A DNA stretch of 64,000 nt from positions 383,459 through 447,458 of the forward strand of contig NZ_AYOD01000001.1 of NCBI RefSeq assembly GCF_000497755.1, given 5' to 3'. This stretch comes from Aliihoeflea sp. 2WW. Its GTDB lineage: Bacteria > Pseudomonadota > Alphaproteobacteria > Rhizobiales > Rhizobiaceae. Both the position numbers and the translations under genes were made by a program. Below the pieces are notes generated by a model. It did no database searches. It had not been told where the DNA came from and saw only the letters and a program-made list of their open reading frames with translations. Shown here one piece after another: positions 33,316-56,135 of this stretch (position 1 is its first letter; the number at the start of each line of letters is the position of its first letter).

Positions 33316-33330
33316 GCGTCTCATCTATCA

Positions 33331-33362
33331 TTGCCGTCCGGTCGAATCGGGCCGGACGGCAA
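33331..33362 (+). terminator. Intercistronic hairpin after the binding-protein gene
   Basis: A perfect 11-bp stem (33331-33341 with 33352-33362) with a 10-nt loop lies 15 bp after the binding-protein stop. No U-run follows, and the permease gene starts 29 bp later, so read-through is expected. It fits an mRNA 3'-end protecting hairpin that keeps binding-protein message above permease message. Confidence 0.7.
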
Positions 33363-33390
33363 ATGCGGCGGATGAGAGGATTGGCTTGAA

Positions 33391-35201: not shown

Positions 35202-36811
35202 GCGAGCCGATCCTCAAGGTCGAACGGCTTTCGCTCTCCCTGCCGAGCGTCGCCGACCGCGCATTCGCGCTGAAGGACGCGTCCTTCGGGATCGCCGCCG
35301 GCGAGACACTATGCGTCGTCGGTGAATCCGGCTCCGGCAAGTCGATGACGGCCCATGCGGTGATGGGACTCCTGCCACCGGCGGTGAAGGTGGCCGGAGG
35401 CAGCATCAGGCTCGGCGGCCGCGAGCTTCTGGAGCTCGGCGATCGCGGCATGCGACAGGTGCGCGGCCGTCATATCGGGATGATCTTCCAGGAGCCGATG
35501 ACCTCGCTCAACCCGCTGATGCGCATCGGCGACCAGATCCGCGAAATGTTCGAGGCGCACGGAGCGCTCGATGCGGGCGCCCGCCAGAAGCGCGCGCTCG
35601 ACCTCATCGAGGAGGTCGGGCTGCCCGATCCGGCGCGCATCGTGCGCGTCTACCCGCACCAGCTATCCGGCGGCCAGCGCCAGCGCGTCATGATCGCCAT
35701 GGCGCTCGCGCTGGAGCCCAAGCTGCTCATCGCCGACGAACCGACCACGGCGCTCGACGTCACCACGCAGGCCCAGATTCTCAAGCTGGTCGACCGGCTG
35801 CGCAGCGACCACGGTACGGCCGTGCTCTTCATCACCCATGATTTCGGCGTCGTCGCAGAGATCGCCGACCGCATCGTCGTCCTCCAGAACGGTGAAATCT
35901 GCGAGACGGGAAAGACGGCCGACGTGCTGCGCGCGCCACAGCACGACTACACGCGCAAGCTGATCGCAGCCGTGCCATCGATCACGCCGCCGCAACCGCG
36001 CACTGTCGAGCAGGCCGCGCCCGCCCTCAAGGTCGATGGCCTGGCCAAGACCTACAGGAGCGGCGGCTTCTTCACCAAGGGGCGCGAGGTCAAGGCAGTC
36101 GATGACGTCTCGTTCGAAATCCGTCCGGGCGAGACGTTGGGCCTCGTCGGCGAATCCGGCTCCGGCAAGTCGACGGTCGGGCGATGCTGCCTGCGGCTGA
36201 TCGAGCCCGACGACGGCACGATCCGGCTGGAGGCCGTCGAAATCCAGGCGATGACGCAGCGCACGCTTCGCCCGCACCGGGCGCGCATCCAGATGATCTT
36301 CCAGGACCCCTACGCCTCGCTGAACCCGCGCCGGTCGGTCGGGCGGATCATCGCCGAGGGTCCGATCGCGCAAGGCGTCGACAAGAAGGCAGCGATGGCG
36401 CGCGCCCGCGAACTGCTCGATCTCGTCGGCCTGACGCCCGGCGCCGCCGATCGCTATCCGCACGAATTTTCCGGCGGGCAGCGCCAGCGCATCGGCATCG
36501 CACGCGCGCTCGCGCTCGACCCAAAAGTGCTGATCGCAGACGAGGCGGTGTCGGCCCTCGACGTCTCGGTGCAGGCGCAGATCCTCGACCTGATCCGCGA
36601 CATCCAGAACCGCCTCGGCGTGGCCATACTCTTCATCACGCACGATCTGCGCGTCGCCGCCCAGATTTGCGACAGGATCGCGGTCATGCAGCGCGGTCGC
36701 ATCGTCGAACTTGGGTCAACGACCGAACTCTTTGCCAACCCATCCCACGACTACACGCGCAAGCTGCTCGCCGCCGTTCCAGGCCGCGACGCCTTCGCCC
36801 ATGCCAACTGA
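35198..36811 (+). CDS. ABC transporter ATP-binding protein, fused DppD-DppF type
   Basis: A 537-residue protein with two complete ABC ATPase domains. NBD1 has Walker A GESGSGKS at residues 42-49, signature LSGGQRQRV and Walker [16 protein letters not shown]2 has Walker A GESGSGKS near 316, signature FSGGQRQRI and Walker [13 protein letters not shown]. Both retain H-loops (FITHD). In most peptide transporters these domains are separate genes; the fused form is known in GsiA/YliA-like systems. NBD2 lacks the usual C-terminal cysteine-rich tail. It powers uptake by the two permeases encoded upstream and overlaps the second permease by 4 bp. Confidence 0.94.
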
Positions 36812-38395: not shown

Positions 38396-39673
38396 TTAAG
38401 CCACTTCCAGTATTGGCAATTCGGCCAACCGCGTCGTATATCGCGGCGTCCGCATCTCAGCCTTGAGGTGCCAGCTCTTGTCGCGGAACCCTTCGCTGGC
38501 CAGCACGAGCGACTTTTTGCCGAAGCGGTCATTGACCTGATCTAGGGCGTCCATCAGGCGGCCGTCGCGGGGACGAGTGGGTGCAAACAACATCTGTGGA
38601 GCTTCGTCAGGCCGCAGCAGGTCATCGAGGATGACGCCTGCCTTGGTGAAGCAGTAAAGCCTGTCAGTCCGCCATGACGCCCGCAGGCATCGCATTGCTG
38701 TCTCGACAAGATCGAACGTGTCTGCTGACATCGGCTTGAGCGCCATCGACTTGCTGGCATGGCGCTGCGGCCGGTCCGGTCGATGCGGGTTGGTGTGGTA
38801 GAAGATGGTCAGGGTTCCGGCGACAAGACCATGGCGACGCAGCTTCTCGGCAGCGCGGGTGGCCTGAGCGGTGATCGCTCGGCCCATTGTGTCGATGTCC
38901 GTGATCGGCGTGCCGGGTGACCGGGTCACCGCCATGCCCTTGCGCTGCGGCTCAACTTCTTCCACGTCGAGACAGCGCACGCCATTCAGCTCGGCGACCG
39001 TCCGCTCCAGGACAACGGTGCCTACTTTGCGCGCAAGTGCCATGGGCATGTCCCGCAGGTCGGCGACCGTCTTCACACCCTGCGCAAGCAGCTTGGCCTC
39101 GGTGCGACGCCCGACACCCCATACCTCGCCGACTGCGATGTGAGGCAGGCAAATGGCTCGGATCGTGGCGTCCATCATGTCGCAAACGCCGCCGAAGACA
39201 GGGTTCTTCTTCGCGACATGGTTGGCGAGCTTGGCCAGTGTCTTGGTCGGGCCGATGCCGACGCATGTCGGAATGCCTGTCAGTTGGCGCACGGCCTGAC
39301 GCATGCCCCGCGCCTGTCCCACCATGCGGCCGCCAAAGCCGGACAGATCGACGAAGGTCTCGTCAATCGAATAGACTTCGAGCGATGGTGAGAAAGCATG
39401 GAGAGCGCCGACGACGCGGCGGCTCATGTCGCCGTAGAGCGTGTAATTGGACGACAGCACCTTGATGCCGTTGCGCTCGACCTTGTCGCGGAACAGGTGC
39501 AGCGGCTCGCCCATCTTGATGCCGAGGGCCTTGGCCTCATCGGACCGAGCAACGGCACAGCCATCATTATTGGAGAGCACCACGACCGGCACGCCGACCA
39601 GCCTCTGGTCGAAGACGCGCTCGCAGGAGACGTAGAAATTATTACAGTCGATCAGGGCCAACGGATCGGCCAT
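38396..39673 (-). CDS. umuC: DNA polymerase V catalytic subunit UmuC (Y family)
   Basis: A 425-residue Y-family translesion polymerase. Catalytic motifs: [18 protein letters not shown] (metal Asp), [34 protein letters not shown] (acidic pair) and [18 protein letters not shown]. The length matches UmuC (about 420). It replicates across DNA lesions, with high error, together with processed UmuD. It starts 3 bp after the umuD stop, so the two form one operon driven by the LexA box at 40115-40129. Confidence 0.95.
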
Positions 39674-39676
39674 GGG

Positions 39677-40108
39677 TCATTCGACCGGATAGCGACGCAC
39701 GACCCCGGCGACAACGCCCCAGATCTCGCAATCCTCGGTCATGCGGATCGGCGGATAGTTCTGCTTGCGCGAGCGGGGCATCAGCCACAACTCGCCATCG
39801 CGCCGCTCGATCACCTTGACCGTGACCCCGCCTTCCACCACCGCCAGAACGATGCGCCCCGGCCGTGCCTTGCCCGCCTTGTCCACCGCGATCAGGTCAC
39901 CGTTGAAGATGCCTTCATCGACGAGGCTGTCACCCGAAACCCGCCACCAGAACGTCGCGCTCTCGTGGCGAACGACCCATGCGAACGGATCGACCGTGTC
40001 CTCCTGATCGTCGGCAGCGGGCGATGGAAACCCGGCCGCGACATTGATGCTGACACGCCGATAGGAGCGGCGGTCGATGATGTTCGGGATGCGGACGGGA
40101 CTGAGCAT
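39677..40108 (-). CDS. umuD: DNA polymerase V subunit UmuD (LexA-like, S24 protease fold)
   Basis: A 143-residue LexA-fold protein. The self-cleavage site is the Ala-Gly in NVAAGFPSPA, the catalytic serine is in VSGDSLVDEGIFNGD and the lysine in GGVTVKVIERR. After RecA-stimulated cleavage, UmuD' binds UmuC. ATG 40108 is chosen because the upstream ATG at 40120 overlaps the SOS box. It is the first gene of umuDC. Confidence 0.94.
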   Translation of the reverse strand: MLSPVRIPNIIDRRSYRRVSINVAAGFPSPAADDQEDTVDPFAWVVRHESATFWWRVSGDSLVDEGIFNGDLIAVDKAGKARPGRIVLAVVEGGVTVKVIERRDGELWLMPRSRKQNYPPIRMTEDCEIWGVVAGVVRRYPVE

Positions 40109-40114
40109 GGACAC

Positions 40115-40129
40115 GAACATAACGCGAAC
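40115..40129. promoter_or_regulatory. Alphaproteobacterial LexA (SOS) box
   Basis: GAAC-N7-GAAC on the plus strand, that is GTTC-N7-GTTC reading toward umuD, which is the direct-repeat LexA site of alphaproteobacteria. It lies 7 bp upstream of the umuD start and 62 bp before the divergent small gene at 40192, so it may control both directions. It supports damage-inducible expression of umuDC. Confidence 0.85.
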
Positions 40130-42767: not shown

Positions 42768-43095
42768 GCCCTATGCCATTGTAAAAGTATAACGGAATGC
42801 AGGAGTAGGGAACGACCGTTAATGGCACTGACTGCTAAGCATCGCCTGTTTCCCCGGCGACGTCGCCCCCCGCCATGGAGCGGCTGAAGGAGCTTGAAGA
42901 CTGTCGGAGCAGACGATCAGCAGAGTTCGCGTGCCTCGCTTGATCTCTTGGCATTCTCTAGCAAATGCTCGGAACAAAGCCCCATCGCCACTCTCTCTGG
43001 CGCCCATAACGCCGACTCATGCGTGTCAGCCTGACCGTCTCGACGCTCGAAATGGGCTCGTTTACAGGTGGCGGCTTGCATCGCAGCGAACACTG
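42768..43095. other. Intergenic region with no supported gene
   Basis: 328 bp between the start of the unknown 465-residue gene and the stop of the HDAC-like gene, both leftward. The part next to the unknown gene has TTGTAAAAGTATAA-like AT-rich sequence that may be its promoter. A few short frames are present in the rest but none has a ribosome-binding site or a family. Confidence 0.4.
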
Positions 43096-44136
43096 CTACG
43101 TGCGGCCAGTCATGCACGATTGGTACGCACCCAGAAACGCTGTCAGATTGGCGCCGAGCGCGTCACAGAGATAGCCGCCCTCCTGCACTATGACCGACGG
43201 CATGCCGGGGCCGGCGATCGCGGCGGCCATCCGTGCGAACCCCGGGGTGGTCACTGAAAGTCCGCCGAATGGGTCTCCCTCGAACGCGTCAAGCCCGAGC
43301 GCGACCACTAGCGCGCTAGGGGCGAACGCTCGGATGCGGCGCAGTGCCGGCTCCAGCGCGGCCATGAACTCGTCATCGCCGGACTTGCGCGGCAGCGGCA
43401 GGTTAAGGTTGTAGCCCAGCCCCGGCCCCTCGCCCCTTTCGTCGGCGTGGCCCCAGAAGAACGGGTAAAAGCGCACCGGGTCGGCATGGATCGAGACGGT
43501 GAGCACGTCGGACCGCGCGTAGAAGATGCCCTGCGTCCCGTTGCCGTGGTGGAGGTCGACGTCGAGGATAGCTACCCTTTCCGCCCCTCCAGCCAGCAGA
43601 CGCTGGGCAGCGATCGCCGAATTGTTGAAGAAGCAGAACCCACCGGCGACGTCCGCGAAGGCGTGGTGGCCGGGCGGGCGGCAAAGCGCATAGGCGGCCG
43701 ACGACCCCGTCGCCACCGCGTCGGCCGCATCGACCGCGCTCCAGGCACTCCAGCACGCGCTCTGAAACGTCTCGGCAGAGATCGGACAGGCCGTATCCGC
43801 CATATGGTACCCGGCCTGGCCAACGGCCGACGCCGGATAGCTGCCGCCCCGCGCGATCGGGTGGATGTTGGGGATCACCTCCGCCGATGCCCCCGCGATG
43901 TGCTGCCAGCGCGCGTAGATGTGCTCGAGGAAATCGAGATATTCGGGCGTGTGGACCGCGGCGATGGGGCCAAGGCCGTGGTCGCGCGGGCGCTCGATCT
44001 CGAGCCCTGCCGCGCGAGCGCCAGCAAGCAGCCGCTCGACCCGTTCGGGCTGCTCCGGGTTCGGCTGGGGCGCACCGCTCGAAAGGAACGCCTTGGGATC
44101 GTGGTGCTTCTGTTCGTCAGCGTAATAGGCTTTCAC
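43096..44136 (-). CDS. Histone deacetylase/acetylpolyamine amidohydrolase family protein
   Basis: A 346-residue arginase-fold zinc deacetylase, start GTG. The active site is complete: tandem histidines in CRPPGHHAFADVAGGFCFFN, zinc ligands in ILDVDLHHGNGTQ, the third ligand Asp in LGLDAFEGDPFGG, and the transition-state Tyr in QEGGYLCDALG. Bacterial members remove acetyl groups from polyamines or other N-acetylated small amines. It is the last gene of the amide-catabolism operon, overlapping the GNAT gene by 4 bp, so it probably acts on an N-acetylated intermediate. Confidence 0.93.
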   Translation of the reverse strand: MKAYYADEQKHHDPKAFLSSGAPQPNPEQPERVERLLAGARAAGLEIERPRDHGLGPIAAVHTPEYLDFLEHIYARWQHIAGASAEVIPNIHPIARGGSYPASAVGQAGYHMADTACPISAETFQSACWSAWSAVDAADAVATGSSAAYALCRPPGHHAFADVAGGFCFFNNSAIAAQRLLAGGAERVAILDVDLHHGNGTQGIFYARSDVLTVSIHADPVRFYPFFWGHADERGEGPGLGYNLNLPLPRKSGDDEFMAALEPALRRIRAFAPSALVVALGLDAFEGDPFGGLSVTTPGFARMAAAIAGPGMPSVIVQEGGYLCDALGANLTAFLGAYQSCMTGRT

Positions 44137-44636
44137 GGCCGCTCCTGTTTATTTGCGCGCAGAAGGTTCTGGAATGCATCGCCATAGGCGCCATGCTCCC
44201 GCTCGTCCTCCCGATATGTGATCCCGACGCGCTCGTAGAAGGTCTGCGCACGAAGGTTGGTGACGTCGACGGATAGCCGCAGATAGGCGCCGCCGCGCTC
44301 TGCCGACCATGCCGCGACGGCGCGGACGAGCGCCTCGCCCACCCCGCGCCCGCGAAACTCGCCGGCGACGTAGAGGTCCTGAACGAAAACGCCGCCCCGC
44401 CCGAGCCATGTCGAGAAGATAGGGAAGAACAGCGCCAGTCCCGCCAGAACGCCTTCCGCTTCCGCAATCAACCCATGGAAGGCCGGCTCGGGACCGAAGC
44501 CGGCGCGACGCAGGTCTTCGGCGGTGCCGGTGATCTTCTTCCGCTGGCCGAGCGCATCGCCCAGTTGCAGGAGCGCGGCATGGATCGCCTCCACGTCCGC
44601 TTCGAGCGCCGGGCGGATTGCGATCAGGGCAGCCAT
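44133..44636 (-). CDS. GNAT-family N-acetyltransferase
   Basis: A 167-residue GNAT fold. Motif A is VQDLYVAGEFRGRGVGEALV, with the acetyl-CoA pyrophosphate loop RGRGVG, and motif B follows (LRAQTFYERVGI). It transfers an acetyl group to a primary amine of a small molecule or protein. It is inserted between the beta-keto acid cleavage enzyme and the deacetylase, overlapping both by a few bases. The pairing of an acetyltransferase and a deacetylase suggests that N-acetylation is a step or a detoxification valve in the pathway. Confidence 0.88.
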   Translation of the reverse strand: MAALIAIRPALEADVEAIHAALLQLGDALGQRKKITGTAEDLRRAGFGPEPAFHGLIAEAEGVLAGLALFFPIFSTWLGRGGVFVQDLYVAGEFRGRGVGEALVRAVAAWSAERGGAYLRLSVDVTNLRAQTFYERVGITYREDEREHGAYGDAFQNLLRANKQERP

Positions 44637-45583
44637 CAGAATGCGACCCGGTCGCCGCCCTTCAATCCCAAGAGTTCGCGTGCCTCACCGGGCGTCGCGA
44701 TCTCCAGCGAGAGAGCTTCGAGAACGGCGCGGATGCGGCGCACCTGGTCGGCATTGGATTTCGCCAACGTGCCGCGCCCATCATAAAGGCTGTCCTCCAG
44801 CCCGACGCGGACATTGCCGCCCATGGCCGCCGCCATCGTGATCATCGGCATCTGATGGCGGCCCGCCGCCAGCACCGAGAAGCTGTAGTCGTCGCCGAAA
44901 AGCTTGTCTGCGATCCGCTTCATGTGGGTGAGGTTCTCGGGATCAGCGCCGATGCCGCCCAGCACTCCGAACACGAACTGGACGAACATGTGCCCATTCA
45001 CGAGACCCCGATCGCGCAGATGAGCAAGCGAATAGAGGTGCCCGACATCGTAGCATTCGAACTCGAACCGCGTTCCGCAGCCTTCGCCCAGCGCCGACAA
45101 TGTGTGCTCCATGTCGGCGAAGGTGTTCTGGAAGATCGAGCTGCGCGTCGCTTCGAGCAGCTTCGGCTCCCAGTCGTGCTTCCATTCGGCCTGCTTGTCG
45201 AGCGCGGGAAAGAGCGCGAAGTTCATCGATCCCATGTTGAAGGACGACATTTCGGGCTTCGCGCGCAGGGCTGCGGCGAGCCGGTCTTCCACCGTCATCA
45301 GCGACGATCCGCCCGTCGATATATTGATCACCGCGTCCGTCGACTGCTTTATGCGCGGTAGAAACTGCATGAAGATTTTGGGATCGGCGGACGGGCGCCC
45401 ATCCTTCGGATCCCGGGCATGAAGATGCAGGATCGACGCTCCGGCCTCGGCGGCCGCGATCGCATCCGACGCGATCTGGTCGGGCGTCAGCGGCAGGTAG
45501 GGCGACATGGTCGGCGTGTGGACCGAGCCGGTGACCGCGCAGGTGATGATGACCTTGCGGCCGTTGGTCTTCTTCAAAGCCAT
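44636..45583 (-). CDS. Beta-keto acid cleavage enzyme (BKACE, 3-keto-5-aminohexanoate cleavage family)
   Basis: A 315-residue TIM-barrel protein of the BKACE (DUF849) family. Zinc ligands are in SILHLHARDPKDG and the acidic/basic catalytic region is NVRVGLEDSLYDGRGTLA. The family condenses a beta-keto acid with acetyl-CoA and releases acetoacetate plus a new CoA ester. Specificity varies widely among members and cannot be assigned from sequence alone. Directly upstream is a class III aminotransferase that could generate the beta-keto acid from a beta-amino acid. Confidence 0.93.
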   Translation of the reverse strand: MALKKTNGRKVIITCAVTGSVHTPTMSPYLPLTPDQIASDAIAAAEAGASILHLHARDPKDGRPSADPKIFMQFLPRIKQSTDAVINISTGGSSLMTVEDRLAAALRAKPEMSSFNMGSMNFALFPALDKQAEWKHDWEPKLLEATRSSIFQNTFADMEHTLSALGEGCGTRFEFECYDVGHLYSLAHLRDRGLVNGHMFVQFVFGVLGGIGADPENLTHMKRIADKLFGDDYSFSVLAAGRHQMPMITMAAAMGGNVRVGLEDSLYDGRGTLAKSNADQVRRIRAVLEALSLEIATPGEARELLGLKGGDRVAF

Positions 45584-45592
45584 GGTCTGCCT

Positions 45593-46978
45593 TCAGCGAT
45601 TGACGGGAAGATCGAGCTCAGCGGCGAGCGCGTCGAGTGTATCGGCCAGGATCGCGACCATTTCGCCGACCTGCGCCGCAGTGATGATGAGCGGTGGCGC
45701 GAGGATGAAATTGTCGCCCTCGATGCCGTCGCCGCGGATGCGCCGCGAATAGACGATCATGCCGCGTTCGTAGGCAAGGTCGATCAGGCGCTGGTTGGCG
45801 CTCTTCACCTTCGGCAGCGGCGCGAAGGTCTCAGGGTCCGCGACAAGGTCGGCGCCGATCAACAATCCTTTGCCACGCACGCCCGAGACGAACGGATAGC
45901 GCGTCGAAAGAGCTTCGAGCTCGCTCTTCAGTAGCTCGCCCATCGCTGCGGCGTTCTCGACGCAACCGAGACGCTCGGTTTCGTCAAGCACTGCCAGCCC
46001 CGCCGCGCAAGAGAGCGGATTGCCGGCATAGGTATAGCCGTGCTGGAAGCCGCCGGCGTCGAGCACCGGCTTGACCAGCCGCCGCGACGCGGCCATCGCG
46101 CCGAGCGGCGCGTAGCCGGAACCTATTCCCTTGGAGAGCGTGACGATGTCGGGCCGGCAGTTCCAGTGGTCGCCGCCTAGATAGCGCCCGGTGCGCCCTG
46201 CCCCGGTCATTACCTCGTCGTGGATGAGCAGGATGCCATGTTTGTCGCAGATTTCGCGGATGCGCGGGAAGTAGCTGTCGGGCGGAACAAGCGCTGCGGT
46301 AGCGGCGCCGCCGATCGGCTCCATGATGAAGGCAAGCACGCTTTCGGGACCTTCGGCGAGGATCTTTTCCTCCAGCATGTCGGCGTAGCGAAGCCCGCGC
46401 TCCTCCATCGAGAAATTGTCGCGGTCGCGATAGGCGCGCGGCGCGGGAATGGTCGGCATGTCGCGAATCTGCGGCGCGAACGTTTCGGTCAATGCGAGGT
46501 CGCCCGTCACGGCAAGAGAGCCCATCGTGCCGCCGTGATAGGAGGGGAACCGCGAAATCACCTTCCAGCGCTTCGCCTGTCCGGTGACCACCGCCCACTG
46601 CCGCGCCAGCTTGATCGCGGATTCGACCGCTTCGGACCCGCCCGAGACGAAGAAAATGCGGTCGAGATCGCCCGGCATCTTTTCGGCCATGTGGCGCGCA
46701 AGTTCCTCGGCAGGTTCGTTTTCGAAATGCAGACGGTAGGCGAAGGTCACGCGCTCCATCTGCTGTTTCATGGCGTCGATGACGTTGCGGTTGCCGTGAC
46801 CGACATTGACCACCATCGCCCCGCTCGACCCGTCGATCATGCGCCGGCCCTGCGTATCCCACAGATATATGCCTTCCGCCCGGTCGACGAGCGGACGGCG
46901 AAGGCGCGTCATGTAGAAGAGGTGCGAGGCCGGGCGCGGCGGTTCGTTGGAAAGAGCGAAGGGTGTGGCAGCGGTCAT
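45593..46978 (-). CDS. Class III PLP-dependent aminotransferase
   Basis: A 461-residue fold-type I aminotransferase. Motifs: SGGSEAVESAIKLARQW (cofactor phosphate), SYHGGTMGSLAVTG, the PLP-ring Asp in LLIHDEVMTGAGRTG, and the Schiff-base lysine in IVTLSKGIGSGYAPLGA. Class III members act on omega- or beta-amino groups. ATG 46978 overlaps the DMFase-like stop by 4 bp; the open frame further upstream has no homology and is not used. In this operon it would convert a liberated amine or beta-amino acid to the corresponding aldehyde or keto acid, the substrate for BKACE. Confidence 0.93.
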   Translation of the reverse strand: MTAATPFALSNEPPRPASHLFYMTRLRRPLVDRAEGIYLWDTQGRRMIDGSSGAMVVNVGHGNRNVIDAMKQQMERVTFAYRLHFENEPAEELARHMAEKMPGDLDRIFFVSGGSEAVESAIKLARQWAVVTGQAKRWKVISRFPSYHGGTMGSLAVTGDLALTETFAPQIRDMPTIPAPRAYRDRDNFSMEERGLRYADMLEEKILAEGPESVLAFIMEPIGGAATAALVPPDSYFPRIREICDKHGILLIHDEVMTGAGRTGRYLGGDHWNCRPDIVTLSKGIGSGYAPLGAMAASRRLVKPVLDAGGFQHGYTYAGNPLSCAAGLAVLDETERLGCVENAAAMGELLKSELEALSTRYPFVSGVRGKGLLIGADLVADPETFAPLPKVKSANQRLIDLAYERGMIVYSRRIRGDGIEGDNFILAPPLIITAAQVGEMVAILADTLDALAAELDLPVNR

Positions 46979-48636
46979 GGATGCGCCTGTCGTGGAAAGG
47001 ACCCGAGGTAGCGGTCGAGGACATTTGCGGTAACGCGCTCGACCATGGCGTCGCCGCGCTTGAGCGCCGCGACCCATTCGCAGCTTCCGGCGTGGAAGAC
47101 CTCACCTTGGCCGCGCGTGAAATTGACGATCATGCCGCAGCCGCGCTTGACGCGGTCGACGGCGGCCTCGCCATCGTCGCCGACGAGCGTGCGGGCGACG
47201 AACTTGGCGTCGGCGTCGGAAAGGAACTGGTCATCTGCGGCGATGTCGGCGCTTTCCTCCTTCAGCGACGACATGCCGAGCGCCAGCACCTGAAGGCCCT
47301 CCGGCGCTCCGCTTTCGGGCGTCGGTTCGGGCAACCCGCCGCGGATCACGTAGTCGAGCCCGTCGACCTCGTAGCCGAAGGCGTGGCCCTCGGATCCGAG
47401 AATGTCGCCGTAATAGATGCCGGTGCCAACGAACGCCCAGTGTTCGGGTCGGTAGACGGGAAATCCGCGCGCGCCGCGCGGTGCGCATCCACCCCAGCCG
47501 ACATAGAGCCCCGAAGTGGCGTTGAGCCCGAAAGTCAGCGCGCCCGGACGACCGATCGCCTCGTCTTCCCACGAGCCCGACATGCGCGTCGGATCGCCCG
47601 ACTGGAACACCGGGTCCTCGGCGCGGGCGCGGTATTTGTAGCAGACCTGCCGCTTGCCGCCGTCTTCGAGACGCGTCTGCCACATGAAGTTGCCGGCGAA
47701 GCGGGCGGCGCTGCCTCCGCGCTCGACATAGCCATCGACCGCGTCGCGCATTTCCCATGTCCAGTATTCGTCATGGCCGAGAAAGGCGACGCAATCGTAG
47801 CCCTCCAGGATTTCCGGCGTGAAATGGAGTTCGTGCTGGCTGACGAGATCGACGCCGTAGCCCTGCCGTTCGGCCCAGCGGAAGAAGTGGCTGTCATAAC
47901 TCGCCCAGCCGGACGACGCGTATTTCTTGGAATAGCCGTTGGCGTAGGCCCACTCCATGTGCGGGTAGCGCGGTGCGGTGGCGACCGGCGTATGGATTTC
48001 GAGCGGCACGCGCGGCGCGTCCGGCGGCAGGACGACGAAGCCCCGGCAGAACGGACGCTCGATGCTGACCGTCGTCGCATACTGGTTGCGGTCCGGGCCG
48101 GTGATGCCCTGATAGTGGTTCGATCCGCCCCAGGTGTTGTAGGCGGTCCAGGAGCCGGTCGCGGCGACCTGCAAAACCCGGCCTGGCTTGCGGCCCAGCG
48201 AGGGGCGGACGATGAAGAAGTGATGGCAGTGGATCGGCCTGCCGTCGCGGCCCTCGGCCGTCAGCGTGAGGCGGTAGCCGCCTGACGGCCAGTCCGGATC
48301 GACCGGGAATTCGAACGACGTCTCCCACCCGCAGCCGGTGACCGAGCATTGGTCCGGCGTCTCGTGCCAGCGAGAGAAAAGGTTCTCGCGCAGCAAGATC
48401 GGCGTCTCGACGCCACCGTCACGCACGATCTCGATGCGATATCGCTCGGCGGTCGAGCTGACCTGCAGCCGGACGGTCGCGCCCGGTGCATAGGAATAGG
48501 CATCCGTATAGCACCAGATCTCACCGCGCTCGCCGTCCATGCCGGGATACTCGTAATAGTGCCCGAGGACAGCCTCGCGGCGCTGCTCGGGCGTCAGCCC
48601 GAAATCGGGAAAGTCGTTCTTGCTCATGGCGTCCAT
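46975..48636 (-). CDS. N,N-dimethylformamidase large-subunit-like hydrolase
   Basis: A 553-residue protein resembling the beta (large) subunit of N,N-dimethylformamidase, an iron-dependent amidohydrolase. It has an Ig-like N-terminal part (YAPGATVRLQVSS), then the glutamine-amidotransferase-like core with TGSWTAYNTWGGSNHYQG, FLGHDEYWTWEMRDAV and YVERGGSAARFAGNFMWQ, and near the end GQGEVFHAGSCEW, which holds candidate Glu/His ligands. No small alpha subunit gene is adjacent, unlike classical DMFase. It overlaps both neighbours by a few bases. It likely hydrolyses an amide of the imported compound; DMF itself need not be the substrate. Confidence 0.85.
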   Translation of the reverse strand: MDAMSKNDFPDFGLTPEQRREAVLGHYYEYPGMDGERGEIWCYTDAYSYAPGATVRLQVSSTAERYRIEIVRDGGVETPILLRENLFSRWHETPDQCSVTGCGWETSFEFPVDPDWPSGGYRLTLTAEGRDGRPIHCHHFFIVRPSLGRKPGRVLQVAATGSWTAYNTWGGSNHYQGITGPDRNQYATTVSIERPFCRGFVVLPPDAPRVPLEIHTPVATAPRYPHMEWAYANGYSKKYASSGWASYDSHFFRWAERQGYGVDLVSQHELHFTPEILEGYDCVAFLGHDEYWTWEMRDAVDGYVERGGSAARFAGNFMWQTRLEDGGKRQVCYKYRARAEDPVFQSGDPTRMSGSWEDEAIGRPGALTFGLNATSGLYVGWGGCAPRGARGFPVYRPEHWAFVGTGIYYGDILGSEGHAFGYEVDGLDYVIRGGLPEPTPESGAPEGLQVLALGMSSLKEESADIAADDQFLSDADAKFVARTLVGDDGEAAVDRVKRGCGMIVNFTRGQGEVFHAGSCEWVAALKRGDAMVERVTANVLDRYLGSFPRQAHP

Positions 48637-49400
48637 CAGGCGGCGAGATATTTGCGCAGGAAGGTGCGGGTGCGTTCGTGCTGCGGCGCGCGGAACATGT
48701 CTTGCGGCACGCCCTCCTCGACCACGACCCCGCCATCCATGAAGAGCACCCGGTCGGCGACCTCGCCGGCAAAGCGCATTTCATGGGTGACGATCAGCAT
48801 GGTCATGTGCTCGGCGGCAAGCTGCCTCATGACCGCGTTGACCTCGTCGACGAGTTCGGGGTCGAGCGCCGAGGTCGCCTCGTCGAAGAGCATGACCTTG
48901 GGCTGCATGGCCAGCGCGCGGGCGATCGCCACGCGCTGCTTCTGCCCGCCGGACAGCCGCGAGGGAAATTCGTCGATCTTCTCGGCAAGCCCGACCTTGC
49001 CGAGAAGCTCTTCGGCCAAGCCACGCGCATCGCGCTTGCTCGTTCCCTTGAGAACGATCGGTCCCATGGTGATGTTGTCGAGCACGCTGAGGTGCGGGAA
49101 CAGATTGAAGTGCTGGAACACCATCCCCATCTGCTGGCGCACCGCATTGATGTGCCGCTCGAAGGCCCTGCCCTTCAGTGGCTGGTTGACCAGCTCCCCG
49201 TCGAGCCAGACCTCGCCCGCGTTCAACGTTTCGAGATGGTTGATCGAGCGCAGCAGGGTCGACTTGCCAGAACCGCTCGGCCCGATGATTGCGACGATCT
49301 GGCCGCGATCGACGGACAGGTCGATGCCCTTGAGCACTTGGAGCGCGCCGAAGGATTTGCGCGCGCCCTTCACTTCGACCATCGGCCGCAAATCGGTCAT
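48636..49400 (-). CDS. Amino acid ABC transporter ATP-binding protein, polar amino acid type
   Basis: A 254-residue ATPase of the GlnQ/HisP class. Walker A is GPSGSGKS near residue 40, the Q-loop is [13 protein letters not shown], the signature [15 protein letters not shown], Walker [15 protein letters not shown] and the H-loop IVTHEM. ATG 49400 overlaps the preceding permease stop (ATGA). The longer open frame upstream is shadow sequence of that permease and is not used. It energises uptake through the two permeases. Confidence 0.94.
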
Positions 49401-50056
49401 CGCGAGACCTCCACTTTCCGTTCGACCCGGCGCAGGCCCGCTTCGAGGACGAGATTCAAGATGTAATAGAGCGCCGCCGCTGTGAGGTAGAACTCGAACG
49501 GACGGAACGTCTCGCTGATGCCGAGCTGGGCGGCGTGGACGAGTTCGGCGATGCCGATGACCGAAACGAGCGAGGATTCCTTCAGGAGCGCGATCATGTT
49601 GCTGCCGATCGGCGGTGCGGTGTTGCGCACGGCCTGCGGCACCACGACGTATCGCAGCGTCTGCAACCGGCTGAAGCCTATGCTGCGCGCGCCTTCGGCC
49701 TGGCCCGGATCGACCGCGACGATGCCGGCCCGCAGGATGTCGGCATTGTAGACGGCGAAATGCAGGCCGAGCCCGATGATGCCGGCGGCAAGTGCCGGGA
49801 TGTCGATGCCGATCTGGACGAGGCCGTAATAGATCAGGAAGAGCTGCAGGAGCAGCGGCGTTCCCATGAACAGCCAGATGAACGACCGGACGGGATAAGT
49901 GACGATTTTCGGCGCATAGAGAAGGGTGACAGCGAAGACGATGCCGAAGATGAAGCTCACGACAGCCGACGAAACGGTGAGCACGACCGTCCACCAGACC
50001 CCCATCCACAGGATGCCCGAATAGGGAAGGACGACGGAGAAATCCAAGCCTTGCAT
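49397..50056 (-). CDS. Amino acid ABC transporter permease (HisM/GlnP family)
   Basis: A 219-residue permease with the His/Glu/Gln/Arg/opine family topology. The EAA-loop signature is [20 protein letters not shown], followed by [16 protein letters not shown]. It overlaps the ATPase gene by 4 bp and starts 10 bp after the second permease stop. The two permeases form a heterodimer. Confidence 0.94.
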
Positions 50057-50066
50057 CTGCCGCCCC

Positions 50067-50714
50067 TCAGACGATTTCGTAGCGCTTGTCGATCAGATCG
50101 ACGGTGCGGGCGACGGCGTAGACGATGATCATGTAGAGGAGTGCCGCGACGGCGAAGATCTCGAACGGCTTGTAGGTGGAGCCGATGAAGCGCTGCGCTG
50201 TATAGGTCATCTCGATGACCGAAATCGTCGAGACGAGCGCCGATCCCTTGACCAGCGCGACCGCGTTGACGCCAAGCGGCCGGATCATCAGGCGCGCGGC
50301 CTGCGGCAGGATCACCCGGCGCATCGTGTCGAGCCGTCCGAAGCCGATCGTGCGCGCCGCTTCCGCTTGGCCGCGATCAACCGCAAGAACCGCGCCGCGG
50401 ATTGATTCGGCCATGTAGGCGCCGATGTTCATGCCGAGCCCGATAACGCCTGCGGCGAAAGGCTCGAGATTGATGCCGATCTGCGGTCCGCCGAAATAGA
50501 GGATGAAGAGCTGGATCAGGCACGGCGTGCCCCGCCAGACGCTGACATAGACCGTCCCGATCATCCGCAGCGGCGCCGAACGCGACAGCTTCGCCGAAGC
50601 GGCAAGGGCTGCGACCACGAGGCCGAGCCCAAGCGCCAGGGCTGAAATCTGGATCGTGACCAGGGCGGCTTCCAGGAAGAACGGGAAGACGCGCTGCATC
50701 AGCGCAAGGTCCAT
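50067..50714 (-). CDS. Amino acid ABC transporter permease (HisQ/GlnP family)
   Basis: A 215-residue permease. The EAA loop is VDRGQAEAARTIGFGRLDTM, followed by ILPQAARLMIRPLGVN. ATG 50714 (MDLALMQRVF) is preferred over TTG 50732, with GGAG upstream. It follows the binding-protein gene across a strong hairpin at 50742-50768. Related to, but distinct from, the permease at 49397. Confidence 0.93.
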   Translation of the reverse strand: MDLALMQRVFPFFLEAALVTIQISALALGLGLVVAALAASAKLSRSAPLRMIGTVYVSVWRGTPCLIQLFILYFGGPQIGINLEPFAAGVIGLGMNIGAYMAESIRGAVLAVDRGQAEAARTIGFGRLDTMRRVILPQAARLMIRPLGVNAVALVKGSALVSTISVIEMTYTAQRFIGSTYKPFEIFAVAALLYMIIVYAVARTVDLIDKRYEIV

Positions 50715-50741
50715 GCGGAGAACTCCGGGCAAATCAGGGAG

Positions 50742-50768
50742 CTTCCGGGCCGGTCATCGGCCCGGAAG
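50742..50768 (-). terminator. Intercistronic hairpin after the binding-protein gene
   Basis: A perfect 11-bp GC-rich stem (50742-50752 with 50758-50768) with a 5-nt loop lies 16 bp after the binding-protein stop and 27 bp before the permease start. There is no U-run. It matches the position of the hairpins at 33331 and 62644 in the other ABC operons. Confidence 0.75.
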
Positions 50769-50784
50769 TCTCATGGGCGCGGGA

Positions 50785-51567
50785 TCAGCGAATGTCGCTG
50801 CCGACCCATTCCATGGCGATCTTTTCGTAGGTGCCGTCTTCCATCATCTCGTCGAGTGCGGCCTGCATGGCTGCCTTGAGTTCCGGATTGTCCTTACGGA
50901 TCGCGATGCCGATGGCGACGCTGCCGCCTTCGATGTCCGGCGTGTCGAGACGGCGGATCTTGTCGCCGGTTTCCTTGATGGCCACCATCACCGGAATGTT
51001 GTCGACTACGATGGCGTCGACGCGCCCGGCCTTCAGTTCCAGCATCAGCTCGGGAAGGCCCTTGTAGGTGCGGATGTCCCAGCCGCCCTGCTCGCGCGCC
51101 CACTTCTCGTGCGTTTCGCCCAGCGTCACGCCGAGCGTCTTGCCCTTCAGGTCATCGAGCGCCTGGACTTCGGCGTCTTCCATGACGAAGACCGCGCGGC
51201 CGGCGTGATAATAGGGGCCGACGAAGTCGACGGCCTTCTCGCGTTCGGGCGTGATCGTCATCGAGCCGACGATGGTGTCGAACTTGTTGGCGAGCAGCCC
51301 GGCGATGATGCCGTCCCAGGCCGTCGTCACGATCTCGCCCTCGACGCCCATGCGCTTGGCGATTTCCATTCCGACCGACGCGTCGAAGCCGACGACCTCG
51401 TTCTGGTCGTTGACAAAATTGAACGGCGGATACTGGCCGGTCATGGCGATCTTCATGGTGCCGGCCGACTTGATGGCCTCGAGGTCTTCGGCCATGGCGG
51501 ACGATACCGCGAAGGCGGAGGCGATCAGCAGGCCGGCGGCGGCGATGCCGGAGAGAAGCGATTTCAT
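50785..51567 (-). CDS. Amino acid ABC transporter substrate-binding protein (SBP family 3)
   Basis: A 260-residue periplasmic binding protein. The signal peptide MKSLLSGIAAAGLLIASAFA ends near MAED (residue 27). Mature motifs: MKIAMTGQYPPFNFVND, VGFDASVGMEIAKRMG, DTIVGSMTITPEREKAVDF and GKTLGVTLGETHE. Domain and length match SBP_bac_3 proteins for polar amino acids and opines. ATG 51567 is used; the frame continues upstream without homology. It is the first gene of the nine-gene operon and is divergent from a LysR regulator (146-bp gap). Confidence 0.94.
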   Translation of the reverse strand: MKSLLSGIAAAGLLIASAFAVSSAMAEDLEAIKSAGTMKIAMTGQYPPFNFVNDQNEVVGFDASVGMEIAKRMGVEGEIVTTAWDGIIAGLLANKFDTIVGSMTITPEREKAVDFVGPYYHAGRAVFVMEDAEVQALDDLKGKTLGVTLGETHEKWAREQGGWDIRTYKGLPELMLELKAGRVDAIVVDNIPVMVAIKETGDKIRRLDTPDIEGGSVAIGIAIRKDNPELKAAMQAALDEMMEDGTYEKIAMEWVGSDIR

Positions 51568-51666
51568 TCGGCTTTCCTTTGTTCCTCTGGATGTGGCGCG
51601 CGAATTGATTGTCATTCTTGGGACGCGTCCAGCGACGCAACCGAACGGCATCCTTGCCTTGTCATA

Positions 51667-51690
51667 TCCATTGCGCAAATAGATAATGGA
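51667..51690. promoter_or_regulatory. Inverted repeat upstream of lysR, candidate LysR site
   Basis: TCCATT (51667-51672) and AATGGA (51685-51690) form a perfect inverted repeat with a 12-bp spacer, in the divergent region between the binding-protein gene and lysR. Its overall size and position suit a LysR recognition/activation site. No binding evidence exists beyond position and symmetry. Confidence 0.5.
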
Positions 51691-51713
51691 AATAATCAGG
51701 ATAGATTTCGAGA

Positions 51714-52673
51714 ATGCTGCCGTCACGAAACGATCGACTGATCTGGGAACTCGACTGGAACCTGCTGCGGACGTTCGTGGTCATTGCGGAGGTTAAGAGC
51801 ATCACCCGCGCGGCCGAGCGCCTAAACCTCAAGCAGCCGAGCGTGAGCAATGCGCTCCGCCGCCTCGAAGCTAGGCTCGGGCGCAAGCTGGTCGAGCGCG
51901 ACGCGACCCGGTTCGAACTTACGGATGTCGGCCGCCTGCTCTACGAACAGAGCGTCGAGGTGTTCGGCACCATTTCGCAGCTTCCGCTTCTGATGCGGGG
52001 CGTCAGCGATGACGTGACCGGCCATGTCACTATCGCATTGGCGAGCCATGTCGTCTCGCCGCTCCTCGACCGCGCGCTCGGCGACTTCCATCGCACCTAT
52101 CCGCGCGCCAGCATCACGCTATCCGTCGCGCCCAGCGTCGAGGTCGCCAAACAGGTGCGCGAGCGGCGCGCCTCGTTCGGCATATGCCTCGTCAGCCAGC
52201 GCGATCCCGCACTCGACTATCTCGCCTTTTACCGCGAGTTCTTTGGCTTCTTCTGCGGCCCCGGCCACAGGCTGTACGGGCGCCAGAACCTCACCTTGGC
52301 GGACCTGGAGGGCGAATCCTCGGTGTCTTTCCAGACCGACCACATCTCCGACGCGCTTCGTCCGGTGGCGCTTCTGCGCAGCGAGGCAAAGCTCGACGCC
52401 AACGTCGTCGGCGTCTCTTCGAGCCTGGAGGAGGTCCGGCGGATGATCCTGGCAGGATTGGGCATCGGCCCCTTGCCGCTCCATGTCGCGCGCCGCGACG
52501 TCGCCGACGGCCTGCTGTGGCCCCTTCCCCCGTACGCCGCCTCGCCCGCGATTGACATCTACCTGCTGACGAACGCGGAGAAGGTACTCAACCGCGCCGA
52601 ACGCGCGCTGATCGGCGGATTGAGTGAGCTGATTGAACAGACCCCATTCGTAGACCGCACCTACGGCGCCTGA
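51714..52673 (+). CDS. LysR-family transcriptional regulator
   Basis: A 319-residue LysR protein. The winged HTH at about residues 18-75 reads SITRAAERLNLKQPSVSNAL, followed by the effector-binding domain (VTGHVTIALASHVVSPLLD). It is divergent from the amino-acid ABC/amide-catabolism operon, so it most likely activates that operon in response to its substrate. The start is ATG 51714; a short N-terminal extension precedes the HTH. Confidence 0.93.
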   Translation: MLPSRNDRLIWELDWNLLRTFVVIAEVKSITRAAERLNLKQPSVSNALRRLEARLGRKLVERDATRFELTDVGRLLYEQSVEVFGTISQLPLLMRGVSDDVTGHVTIALASHVVSPLLDRALGDFHRTYPRASITLSVAPSVEVAKQVRERRASFGICLVSQRDPALDYLAFYREFFGFFCGPGHRLYGRQNLTLADLEGESSVSFQTDHISDALRPVALLRSEAKLDANVVGVSSSLEEVRRMILAGLGIGPLPLHVARRDVADGLLWPLPPYAASPAIDIYLLTNAEKVLNRAERALIGGLSELIEQTPFVDRTYGA

Positions 52674-53392
52674 TCGTCATGCGGTGCGTTGCCAGGACCG
52701 CGGTCTAGTGACAAGCGGGGTGCGTGACTGGCATCAACGGCACTCGGGATAGATAGCTCGTAGCGTAGATCGCTGACGCTGTCGATCTCAAGACCGGGCC
52801 ACGACGGCGAGCTATTCAAGTTCGGCCTCTTCCTGGGCTCAAGGACTCGTTCCAGCACCGACGGCTGCTACACCTGACCGATGACGCTCGGTTGTTGGAC
52901 GCCTGATTGCGGTCTTGCCCGGCAAGAGAGGGCGTCGGGCATCGTCATCGGCGAATCCTTCGGGATGCCTTCCGCTCTCGCGAGGCCTGGACCCCGCCTG
53001 GGGTGGTGACGGCGCCTTGGCTGACGTCAATACGAATAGAGATTGGAATCGTCAGCGACGCATTTCCGGCGCCCCCTCGAAGGTGACTCATTCGCGCATC
53101 ATGTGCTTGTCACGGGGATTCCGAACCACGCAGGTGACTGGTTAGAGGAATCGCGTCGTTCTCGACCCCGGTAGACTTATGGCATCGTCGTAATGACAGA
53201 GGCGCTGCTGGTTCAATAGGCCGAATGACCGGCGTGAATTTTTCGGTCTTCGTGTTTACGCTTCGAGACATTCGTTTGCCAGGCCGCAAGCATCCAGAGC
53301 CGCCGGTGCGGACTAGGCAGATGCAGGATGGCATGCGGTCTCGGCGGGTCCGCCATGACCGAAACCAGAAGCGCAGGAAACCTCGGTCCGAT
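52674..53392. other. Gene-free region between lysR and the integrase module
   Basis: About 720 bp with only short frames of scrambled composition in all six frames. It looks like decayed sequence of the kind often found at island borders. No RNA gene, clear repeat or terminator was recognised. Confidence 0.45.
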
Positions 53393-53647
53393 ATGGAAGA
53401 AGGTCCGCGACGGAACTCAGGACACTCTTGCCCTCCGGTGACGGCGGAGTTGCTTGAATGCTGCCTCGACCGGGTAGCGCTCGCGATTGCCCGGGATCCA
53501 GCAGGCGCGGCCTACCTTCCGATCTACGAGAGGCTGGACGCCGAGCTCGCGGCCATGCGGCGGAAGGCGGCCGTCTTGCAGCAAATCCGGGCACGGCTCG
53601 GACAGCGGAGAGCCGGCCTGCCAAAGGACCAAACCATCACGTTCTAG
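53393..53647 (+). CDS. Small hypothetical protein
   Basis: An 84-residue frame with credible coding composition in its second half (CLDRVALAIARDPAGAAYLP, then helical ERLDAELAAMRRKAAVLQQI). ATG 53393 is a guess; upstream in-frame sequence is arginine-rich and unlike protein. No family recognised. It lies opposite the integrase genes and may belong to the island cargo. Confidence 0.4.
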   Translation: MEEGPRRNSGHSCPPVTAELLECCLDRVALAIARDPAGAAYLPIYERLDAELAAMRRKAAVLQQIRARLGQRRAGLPKDQTITF

Positions 53648-53821
53648 GAAATCTAGCCCCCTAAGGCTATAGTCCCCTTCTATCCCCAACGCCCCCGCCG
53701 CTGCTGAAAAGGACGGTCCGGCTTCCTGCGTAGACGACCATGGAACTGACGCGGTGGTCATCTCCATGAACTAGTTCGGAGCGTGGCAGAGCAGTCCATA
53801 TTCGGCAACACTCGCGCGGGC

Positions 53822-54370
53822 TCAGACGATTGATGGGTCGAAATCGTAGGCGATCGCCCTCAGCGCCTCACGGCGCTCGCATAGCGGCACTTCGAGTGCC
53901 AGTTCGTCCCATCCGCCCTCGTGCCGGTAACCCAGTATGGCCTCCCGCACCGGCCCTCCGACCTTGTTCATGAGCAGGCGCTCATGCATCGCGCCTCTGA
54001 GCCCGACGATCGACTGGCCGCGGGACAGAAGACCGTTCTCTCGCAGGCAACGGGACGCGTGGGCGCAGTAGGAACGGGTGTTCCCGCGGTAGCGCGGAAA
54101 ACCGGCCGGATTCCGGGTGAACACGGCGTGCGCGACCCCGACGAGCGGAATCCGGCGCCGCCTCGGCGCGAATAGCTCGTTCCGGATGTAGATAAAGGAG
54201 CAGCCGTCGTCCAGCGACAGGTCTTCCGGCGTAACGTCGCAGATTTCCTTGGGGAAGCATCCGGTCTCGACGAGCGCGAGCGTGATCCCGCGCGCCTCGT
54301 CGTTCATCCCGGCCAAGGCGCCCGGTACGAGGAACGCTCTGACCGCGGCTGGATTTAGCATTACGCGCAT
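53822..54370 (-). CDS. Catalytic-domain-only tyrosine recombinase paralogue, predicted inactive
   Basis: A 182-residue protein colinear with the catalytic domain of the integrase next door (shared PGALAGMNDE, ITLA-VETGC, IPLVGV, GFPRY and the ending YDFDPSIV). The N-terminal core-binding domain is missing. Compared with the neighbour, the box I Arg is Phe (GCFPKEI), the His after the box II Arg is Gly (GLRGAM), the GH motif is GY (LGYR) and the tyrosine nucleophile region is unrelated. Yet the frame is intact and ATG 54370 has a strong AGGAG site 6 nt away, so it seems to be expressed rather than simply decayed. A regulatory or accessory role in excision is a possibility. Confidence 0.75.
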   Translation of the reverse strand: MRVMLNPAAVRAFLVPGALAGMNDEARGITLALVETGCFPKEICDVTPEDLSLDDGCSFIYIRNELFAPRRRRIPLVGVAHAVFTRNPAGFPRYRGNTRSYCAHASRCLRENGLLSRGQSIVGLRGAMHERLLMNKVGGPVREAILGYRHEGGWDELALEVPLCERREALRAIAYDFDPSIV

Positions 54371-54527
54371 TGCGATCTCCTTTCCGAAGATCAGTTGCCG
54401 CCGGCGTCGGCGAGGATGCAAGGCCATCCCTTCTCGCCTGAGCCTGCGGGGTGCCGGCGCTGCCACGACCCTTTGACGGGACAGTGACCGGCCGGCTGCT
54501 GAGGACGTCCGCGCCGAGCACGCGCCG

Positions 54528-55901
54528 TCAGACGATCGCCGGGTCGAAATCGAAAGCCATCCTGCTGAGGATCCGCTCGCGGAAGGCCAGCGATCCCTTC
54601 TTGCCGTATCTCGGCCTCTCGATCTTGTGACCCATCAACACCGCGCGCACCTCCAAGTCGACGCCGCTTTCGAGCAAACGGTCGTCGAAGGAGTGTCTGA
54701 ACGAATAGACGGTGTGCGCGCGGCTCGGCTTTAGACCGTTTTTAGCGAAGTACTTGTTGGCGGCCGCCGAGTACGTGCTCTCCTTGTCCTTGTAGCGGGG
54801 GAAGCCGCGAGGATGCCGCCGGATCGCCTCCAAGCTGACTCCTACCAACGGGATCTCCCGGTCCGACTGTTTGGTCTTCAACTGACGCTTGTCACCCGGG
54901 GTGGTCCGCGCCCGGATATGGATGTAGGGAACGTCCCCGTCCAGGTGAATGTCCTCCGGCGCGATGTTGCAGAGTTCACCCGGGCGGCAGCCCGTTTCCA
55001 CTTGAGCCAGCGTGATGGCCCGCAGTTCGTCGTTCATTCCGGCAAGAGCACCGGGTGCGAGTATCCGGTCCCTGATCCAATCGCAGGTAAACGAGTCCCG
55101 CGTGCGCAATTTGCTTTCGCTGAAACCGAAGCCAGAGAACGGGTTGCTCCTGCCGTGATCGCCACCCAGGTGCTCGAAATAGGCCGAGTAGAGCCTGCGG
55201 ACGGCGCAGAGCTGCTTGTTGCCGGTCGAAGCCGACACTGGTTTCTGGCTCGGGTCTTTCGGAGCGACACGGTCCAGCATGTTCTTGTAGAATGCGCGGC
55301 CGTCCTCCCGCGTTGTCTCCGTGACCGGCTTGTCGCCGATCACCTGCATCAGGTTGGCGATGGCACGCCTCTGCGTGGTCTCCCAGCGTTTGAGCTGGCC
55401 TGGGCTTTTCTTCGCTAGCTCGCTCCAGACGATTTCTGTCTTGTATACCTCCAGTGCGTCGTCCCAGGAGGCCTCGGGACGGTCTTCGCGGCCGAGCACG
55501 GCTGCCTCGACGGCAGGCGGCGTCGCCTCTGGCAGGATTGCGAGCACCCGCCGGACGAGGTCCTCGAACGGCCCGGAAGCGATCTCGGCGCTCGTGCGGT
55601 AGGCAAATCCCAGCGCCTCGGCGCGGCGGACGGCCGCCCTGTGCTGCCTGAGCGCCGCCTCCCCTTCGCCGCCCTCCTCGACAAGGAGCGCCGACCAGTA
55701 GTCATTGTCAGCTGCTTCGAGCACGTCGCGCTTCCGTCGCGCCATGCACAGGTCGTCGGTCTTCAGGGAAATTCGCACCAGGCCGGAGCGGGACCGGAAA
55801 TCCAGTCGCGCCACCGGGGACGGTATCCGCCGCCAGTAGTAATAGATGCCGCTGCGCGGCATCAGGTACCGGTCGGGGTCTGCTACCCGGCAAAGCCGCA
55901 T
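54528..55901 (-). CDS. Tyrosine-type site-specific recombinase (integrase)
   Basis: A 457-residue integrase. The N-terminal part has the arm/core-binding region of large rhizobial integrases (YLMPRSGIYYYWRRIP, RISLKT), and the C-terminal catalytic domain begins near residue 285. Active-site elements: Arg in VETGCRPGELCNI, Lys region KTKQSDREIPL, box II VYSFRHSF (with Tyr in place of the usual first His), MGHK, and the tyrosine in RPRYGKKG. ATG 55901 follows a GGAGG site; the longer frame reaches into tRNA-Gly and is rejected. Lying 126 bp from the 3' end of tRNA-Gly, it probably integrates its island at that gene. Confidence 0.92.
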   Translation of the reverse strand: MRLCRVADPDRYLMPRSGIYYYWRRIPSPVARLDFRSRSGLVRISLKTDDLCMARRKRDVLEAADNDYWSALLVEEGGEGEAALRQHRAAVRRAEALGFAYRTSAEIASGPFEDLVRRVLAILPEATPPAVEAAVLGREDRPEASWDDALEVYKTEIVWSELAKKSPGQLKRWETTQRRAIANLMQVIGDKPVTETTREDGRAFYKNMLDRVAPKDPSQKPVSASTGNKQLCAVRRLYSAYFEHLGGDHGRSNPFSGFGFSESKLRTRDSFTCDWIRDRILAPGALAGMNDELRAITLAQVETGCRPGELCNIAPEDIHLDGDVPYIHIRARTTPGDKRQLKTKQSDREIPLVGVSLEAIRRHPRGFPRYKDKESTYSAAANKYFAKNGLKPSRAHTVYSFRHSFDDRLLESGVDLEVRAVLMGHKIERPRYGKKGSLAFRERILSRMAFDFDPAIV

Positions 55902-56027
55902 GACACGAACTCCTCCGTTGCCAGATGTATCCCCAGAATGTATCCCAAAAAAGGACACAGGACAATGGCAGGCCCAGAACGCAACCATTGCGAAACCGGG
56001 CTTTCTGGCGCCTTCGGAGAGGAAATT

Positions 56028-56062
56028 TGGAGCGGGTAGCGGGAATCGAACCCGCGTATTCA
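56028..56062. other. Probable integration (att) site in the tRNA-Gly 3' half
   Basis: Tyrosine recombinases next to a tRNA gene generally use its 3' half (T-arm to CCA) as the crossover region. Here that is about 56028-56062, with the integrase 126 bp away on the same strand. I saw no second copy of this segment elsewhere in the window, so the distal end of the island is either outside it or lost. Confidence 0.45.
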
Positions 56063-56101
56063 GCTTGGAAGGCTGCTGCTCTACCATTGAGCTATACCCG
56101 C
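56028..56101 (-). tRNA. tRNA-Gly (anticodon TCC), CCA encoded
   Basis: Read on the minus strand it begins GCGGGTATAGCTCAA and ends with the T-arm GGTTCGATTCC, acceptor CTACCCGC, discriminator T and CCA (56028-56030). The anticodon loop has CTTCCAA, giving TCC for glycine. All arms pair. Its 3' end faces the integrase, making it the probable attachment site of the island. Confidence 0.95.
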
Positions 56102-56135
56102 CTCACGTGCAGGTTCAACTTTCGATGTGGGCCGG

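Follow-up and report, generated by a model that had tools for sequence, protein, structure and literature searches.

A catalytic-domain-only, probably inactive paralogue of a tyrosine integrase at the tRNA end of a genomic island

The window analysed here, a stretch of 64,000 nucleotides (G000:C1:383459-447458), carries at the tRNA end of a genomic island a full-length tyrosine integrase gene followed by a small gene. The small gene would be an old integrase paralogue that was reduced to the catalytic domain, lost catalysis and had its fold kept by selection; this reading is tentative, and we rate it just short of an even chance. It is nearly balanced by the reading of the gene as a late-stage relic, retention being slightly ahead. 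The gene belongs among the degenerate recombinase paralogues, which are an already known kind. The features of the region are collected in Table 1.

Table 1. Features at the tRNA end of the island (window positions)
Feature	Positions	Strand	Remarks
Tyrosine integrase, 457 aa	54528..55901	-	Pfam DUF6538 and Phage_integrase
Small gene: catalytic-domain-only integrase paralogue, 182 aa	53822..54370	-	ATG at 54370; open frame
Gap of 157 bp, integrase stop to small-gene start	54371..54527	-	No terminator-like site, no remnant of the N-terminal domains
Stretch with ribosome-binding site AAGGAG upstream of the small-gene ATG	54375..54388	-	
Attachment-site core TGGAGCGGGTAGCG	56028..56041	+	Equals the 3' end of tRNA-Gly; second copy at L089:11957-11970, 63,030 bp away
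tRNA-Gly (TCC), integration target	56028..56101	-	

An integrase at the 3' end of a tRNA gene, direct repeats and the empty arrangement of relatives identify the region as a tRNA-borne genomic island. The island measures 63,030 bp and has a 14-bp direct repeat at both ends; 7 kb of it lie outside the window, and its annotation covers the part inside. In the window and the neighbouring stretch L089, which were both searched, TGGAGCGGGTAGCG occurs once each, at the tRNA end in the window and in the same orientation in L089. Between the integrase and the 3' end of tRNA-Gly are 126 bp. Four congeneric genomes match the window DNA to the right of the tRNA gene (from position 56028, in one of them from 56023), while to the left they had no match to the window and were alike among themselves. 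In all four, tRNA-Gly is at most a few kb from DNA that here stands at the far end of the island, and most of that left-side DNA corresponds to C1:370983-376284 in the window's own genome. In G211, one of the four, the left side of tRNA-Gly holds what we take to be xthA-, dgt- and argS-like genes. The GC content of the island is 0.630, compared to 0.637 and 0.645 in the flanks. Two cargo segments (42859-52699 and 29204-36643) are also present on another contig of G211 (L058) at 94 and 89 % identity, about 1.5 kb apart there, and the cargo is thus not unique to this insertion. No integrase match at E≤1e-8 was obtained in G211.

The large integrase looks functional, judging from its catalytic residues, which are all present (R306, K342, Y399, R402, H403, G424-H425 and Y432). 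The small protein is colinear with the integrase catalytic domain only, at 43-44 % identity over 168-169 aligned positions. The integrase is its sole meaningful relative in its own genome, and the E value of 4.7e-33 (0.07 for the third match) excludes a chance likeness. The small protein had no match in Pfam or NCBIfam at E≤1 and none in PHROGs at E≤0.1. No remnant of the integrase N-terminal domains was found upstream of the small gene in any frame. The gene has neither a stop nor a frameshift and its gaps relative to the integrase are whole codons. Ribosome-site matches of at least six bases, the grade of its AAGGAG, were found at 1.1 % of the 2086 ATGs of the window. The GC content at third positions is 0.803 in the small gene and 0.799 in the integrase. 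An earlier note on this DNA had claimed the colinearity, the missing N-terminal domain, the intact frame and the excellent ribosome-binding site, and all four were borne out. Many long open frames occur in this GC-rich DNA, and the frame could in principle be a high-GC by-product from which no protein is made. This is highly improbable given the in-frame homology to the integrase, the codon-position GC pattern of a gene and an omega below 1 on the small-gene branch. Six of the 182 residues of the small protein are cysteines, compared to three in the integrase catalytic domain. A 140-aa open reading frame of uncertain coding status (53225-53647, + strand) faces the small gene and has no match in Pfam, NCBIfam or PHROGs.

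The active site was compared in an alignment of 73 rows, the window integrase and 72 relatives whose match spans from integrase residue ≤150 to ≥436; this span rule favours intact ends, the included loci L098 and L099 have shortened frames and some rows are near-identical. The catalytic Lys and the nucleophilic Tyr, present in 73/73 rows, correspond in the small protein to an in-frame gap and to L, respectively. The box I Arg (R in 68/73 rows) is F, the box II Tyr/His position (Y in 65, G in 7 and H in one of the 73 rows) is V, and G replaces the His that follows the box II Arg (69/73). All 73 rows have the box II Arg and the GH motif; the small protein retains this Arg as well as the Gly and the His, with YR inserted between the latter two. 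The earlier note was right about the changed box I Arg, box II His and nucleophilic Tyr, but the change it reported in the GH motif is this insertion, Gly and His themselves being kept. Among the columns conserved in at least 95 % of the rows, 5/18 are lost. Without the nucleophilic Tyr the known chemistry cannot take place, and the pentad Arg-Lys-His/Tyr-Arg-His is incomplete; with five catalytic positions lost relative to the 73 rows, the description of the protein as catalytically dead is well supported.

The identity of the small protein to the integrase is 9/26 around the Lys, 8/26 in box II and 3/19 around the Tyr, whereas four active relatives have 12-15/30-35, 13-16/26 and 9-11/19 in the same stretches. 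Identity is not low in the first stretch, that of the box I Arg (23/31), or in the tail (8/14), and these are the parts that one would expect to be kept for packing and subunit contact. Since three other relatives match the integrase about equally there (20-21/31 in the first stretch and 4-10/14 in the tail), the values give no sign of specific co-adaptation.

Of the 46 hydrophobic-core columns 44 are kept in the small protein, equal to the integrase's own count at these columns. An AlphaFold2 model made from a 14-row alignment had a mean pLDDT of 88.6 and a pTM of 0.88; the rows were active relatives, which aids the model, and it is supportive rather than independent evidence. In a Foldseek search with 137 matches, nine of them at E≤0.001, the best 50 were tyrosine recombinases throughout, with 5vfz at the top (E 4.4e-5, TM 0.73). 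Sequence homology and the predicted structure support a recombinase catalytic fold for the small protein.

Real integrase remnants served as a control. The frames of this family, or close to it, are short or broken at 13 loci (L094-L098, L100, L101, the L119 fragment, L120 and L170-L173, with the contig-end-cut L099 excluded), and the Lys was present in 12/12 and the Tyr in 12/12 cases where the site was spanned; the set overlaps with the 73 rows at L098, and some of its members (L100, L170 and L171) may be integrases that are naturally short and not truncated. Ordinary remnants here have poor frames and good active sites, whereas the small gene has a good frame and a broken active site. The short frames of G1107 (233 aa) and G244 (242 aa), which span most of the domain, were rejected as candidates as their catalytic residues are kept, and short frames in G412, G628, G217, G1067, G126, G346 and others were partial, some with stops.

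The closest alternative is that the gene descends from a second integrase at this tRNA, older or co-resident, whose N-terminal half was lost first and its active site next, and that it is now decaying without function, its constraint stemming from the active past. We regard this as a serious possibility, somewhat below even. Remnants do occur at such sites: in G650 a full integrase is followed after about 600 bp by a C-terminal integrase fragment with intact GH and Tyr (L119:2662-2901), an ordinary tandem remnant. The small protein also has the longer branch, 1.87 compared to 0.26 for the integrase in one tree and 1.21 compared to 0.54 in a second tree that differs in model and placement, a difference to be expected under relaxed constraint. 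However, a long neutral phase should break the core and add stops, a recent one is too short for the loss of five catalytic positions, and the whole-codon gaps and strong ribosome site also speak against decay. Neutral decay was simulated from the present integrase, with substitutions only and with a joint statistic chosen after inspection of the data. The core reached at least 44 in 0/300 runs at each of four divergence levels, and at 60 % identity its mean was 34.7/46 with a maximum of 42 in 300 runs. Simulated decay loses core and catalytic positions together: at least 5/8 catalytic positions changed, a core of at least 44 and no stop coincided in at most 1/20,000 runs at each of eight levels, the joint probability being ≤0.0012 with conserved columns and ≤0.00005 with catalytic positions.

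In the codon models the small-gene branch is long and synonymous sites are near saturation, which makes the omega estimates for it rough. A two-ratio model of 14 sequences and 175 codons gave the small-gene branch an omega of 0.14 and the background one of 0.055; setting this branch to omega=1 cost 6.2 lnL units (2dlnL 12.3) and was rejected, and setting it to the background value cost 0.7 units. With 18 sequences and free topology the values were 0.067 and 0.19, and omega=1 cost 4.7 units (2dlnL 9.4). The pairwise NG86 dN/dS between small gene and integrase (0.60/1.03) was set aside as a test, since its dS approaches saturation and the value mixes both branches. In a mixed model of constraint followed by neutrality the neutral phase went to its lower bound, and a phase of 0.15 substitutions per site cost only 1.4 lnL units; the likelihood thus tolerates a recent neutral phase, as the relic explanation would have it. 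The constraint is an average over the branch and, with no orthologue found to date it by, may stem from a past as active integrase. The random decay that had been named as the refuting outcome was not observed, as there is no stop, gaps are whole codons, the core is kept and neutrality over the whole branch is rejected, with a recent neutral phase tolerated.

The small gene was found in a single genome, which favours the relic explanation. Genomes with a match to the small protein at E≤1e-8 numbered 36/297 in the family, 60/397 in the order and 4/385 in the class, in draws that overlap and each include the window's own genome, and none of the 297, 397 and 385 genomes held an orthologue. A profile search gave none in 394 and 397 genomes among the matches listed; at most eight candidates per genome were scored, and short proteins may therefore be missed. 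The gene had been called conserved, which in the sense of orthologues found no support in any draw or with the profile. The same two-gene arrangement was also expected in other islands, and no second tandem pair appeared in the match lists of the 297, 397 and 385 genomes. In a profile scan of the fetched loci, which include repeat fetches of the same places, 141 had an integrase match and eight had more than one frame; some stretches end with the contig (e.g. L152, L154 and L161), where a second gene could be missed. Four of the eight (L001, L002, L147 and L150) were the window's own pair, L094 and L116 were one frameshifted integrase, L119 was the C-terminal fragment and L090 is described below. 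Among 18 relatives fetched with wider flanks, some stretches again ending with the contig, no second catalytic-domain frame was found. A tRNA gene adjoins the integrase at 9/12 loci scanned. G301 also has its integrase at tRNA-Gly(TCC) (L152), with no second gene in a stretch that stops at the contig end. Searches of phages, plasmids and viral contigs with the small protein gave 3, 1 and 7 records, respectively, all of them annotated integrases or within full-length frames, and a search of genome contigs gave one full-length integrase. The DNA of 52600-56110 had, among 61 relatives, only tRNA matches and a few short pieces besides its own genome. No report of a retained dead tyrosine-integrase paralogue was found among titles and abstract openings, in coverage that leaves subscription journals mostly outside, and the words 'inactive' and 'paralog' do not occur in PMC8138268.

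In an LG+R4 tree of 78 rows the small protein was unplaced (support 39), and in a mixture-model tree of 35 chosen rows it joined the window integrase with support 89/90. On the basis of these sequences it and the integrase next to it are likely sisters.

A comparable protein, a second instance of this design, was found in another genus, g177 (L110-L113), where 4/18 genomes have a 229-codon open frame for a catalytic domain only. Like the window's small protein, the g177 protein has lost catalytic positions (in its case the box II Tyr/His, the His next to the box II Arg, and the GH-His), has kept its core (43/47) and has a constrained stem. Both have kept the box II Arg. The g177 protein differs in having also kept the box I Arg and the Lys, and in its distance of 7-68 kb from the full integrase. 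It aligns with a gap at the nucleophilic Tyr, but as a Tyr stands nearby this loss is less sure. The other copies are 92-94 % identical to that of G487, and the protein groups with the full integrases of its own genus (support 95), a separate origin from the small protein in that tree. In a branch model its stem had an omega of 0.037, with the length at the upper bound, and omega=1 was rejected (2dlnL 12.6), whereas the omega within the clade was 0.67 and did not differ from 1 (2dlnL 0.8). Pairwise dN/dS was 0.40-1.15 (six pairs); the full integrases that these four genomes also carry gave 0.12-0.18. The frame is intact in 3/4 copies, that of G589 having a TAG at codon 183/200. That this analogue is now near-neutral, with one stop, is a further point for the relic explanation of the small gene, and it is a warning that a constrained stem is no proof of present use. 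The broader claim, that tRNA-island integrases in this order repeatedly yield dead stand-alone catalytic-domain proteins that are kept as regulators of their own integrase, here and in g177, appears rather unlikely. The g177 protein has six cysteines in 200 residues. In G487 (L090:9992-13384) it is followed by a 194-aa and a 606-aa protein, in the same order as in L092, and the tail MRHGQASLLL of the 606-aa protein looks recombinase-like by eye.

If the small gene is a retained paralogue, the two genes would share one message, with the small protein translated second, given the shared strand, the short gap, its own ribosome site and no terminator found between the two. Lacking the arm- and core-binding domains, it would act by protein contact. 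Tyrosine recombinases such as lambda Int, Cre and Xer use a subunit surface and a C-terminal tail in their tetramers, and through these the small protein may join or cap integrase multimers, and so damp or order the integrase reactions, much as transposases are inhibited by truncated forms of themselves. A putative role as decoy or subunit is compatible with the data. The other role proposed earlier, that of a recombination directionality factor for the integrase, was unsupported and is the least probable of the explanations weighed. The gene does adjoin the integrase, and a Pfam scan of 24 window proteins, a subset of the island ORFs, recognised no excisionase. However, the factors known to give tyrosine integrases their directionality are small DNA binders of the winged-helix or MerR-like type, whereas the small protein has the predicted recombinase catalytic fold and no excisionase-type family match in Pfam, NCBIfam or PHROGs.

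The small protein shares the predicted fold, the box II Arg, the Gly and the His with the catalytic domain (PF00589) of lambda Int, XerH, Tn1549 Int and Brujita Int, but differs from them in having no nucleophile, Lys, box I Arg, core- or arm-binding domain, and no Pfam match at E≤1. A further parallel is Tn5 Inh and similar transposase inhibitors, N-terminally truncated enzymes proposed to act by mixed multimers. The small protein is likewise an N-terminally truncated version of an enzyme, and inhibition would be by analogy only; the transposase gene itself also encodes Tn5 Inh, whereas the small protein comes from a separate, diverged gene. In archaeal SSV-type split integrases a C-terminal integrase piece stands at the island end, as here, but in the present island the attachment core lies within the tRNA gene and the integrase is whole. 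If the dead copy works, a pseudo-recombinase beside the integrase could set the mobility of the island, as a layer of control besides excisionases and transcription, and many open reading frames dismissed as truncated integrases would deserve testing. Should it prove a relic, it would still warn against taking an open frame and a branch under constraint as proof of a living gene.

No relaxase was found among 20 scanned ORFs of the island. Its cargo includes two overlapping genes (2683-5893, + strand) that matched the Gabija defence pair in PADLOC (GajA E 9.3e-185, GajB E 8.9e-146), and an S24 peptidase gene adjoining a Y-family polymerase gene in an umuDC-like arrangement (38396-40120, - strand). 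Catabolic genes lie within 7206-33315 and encode TRAP and tripartite tricarboxylate transporters, an acyl-CoA dehydrogenase, MmgE/PrpD, an enoyl-CoA hydratase, an AMP-binding enzyme and an FAD-linked oxidase.
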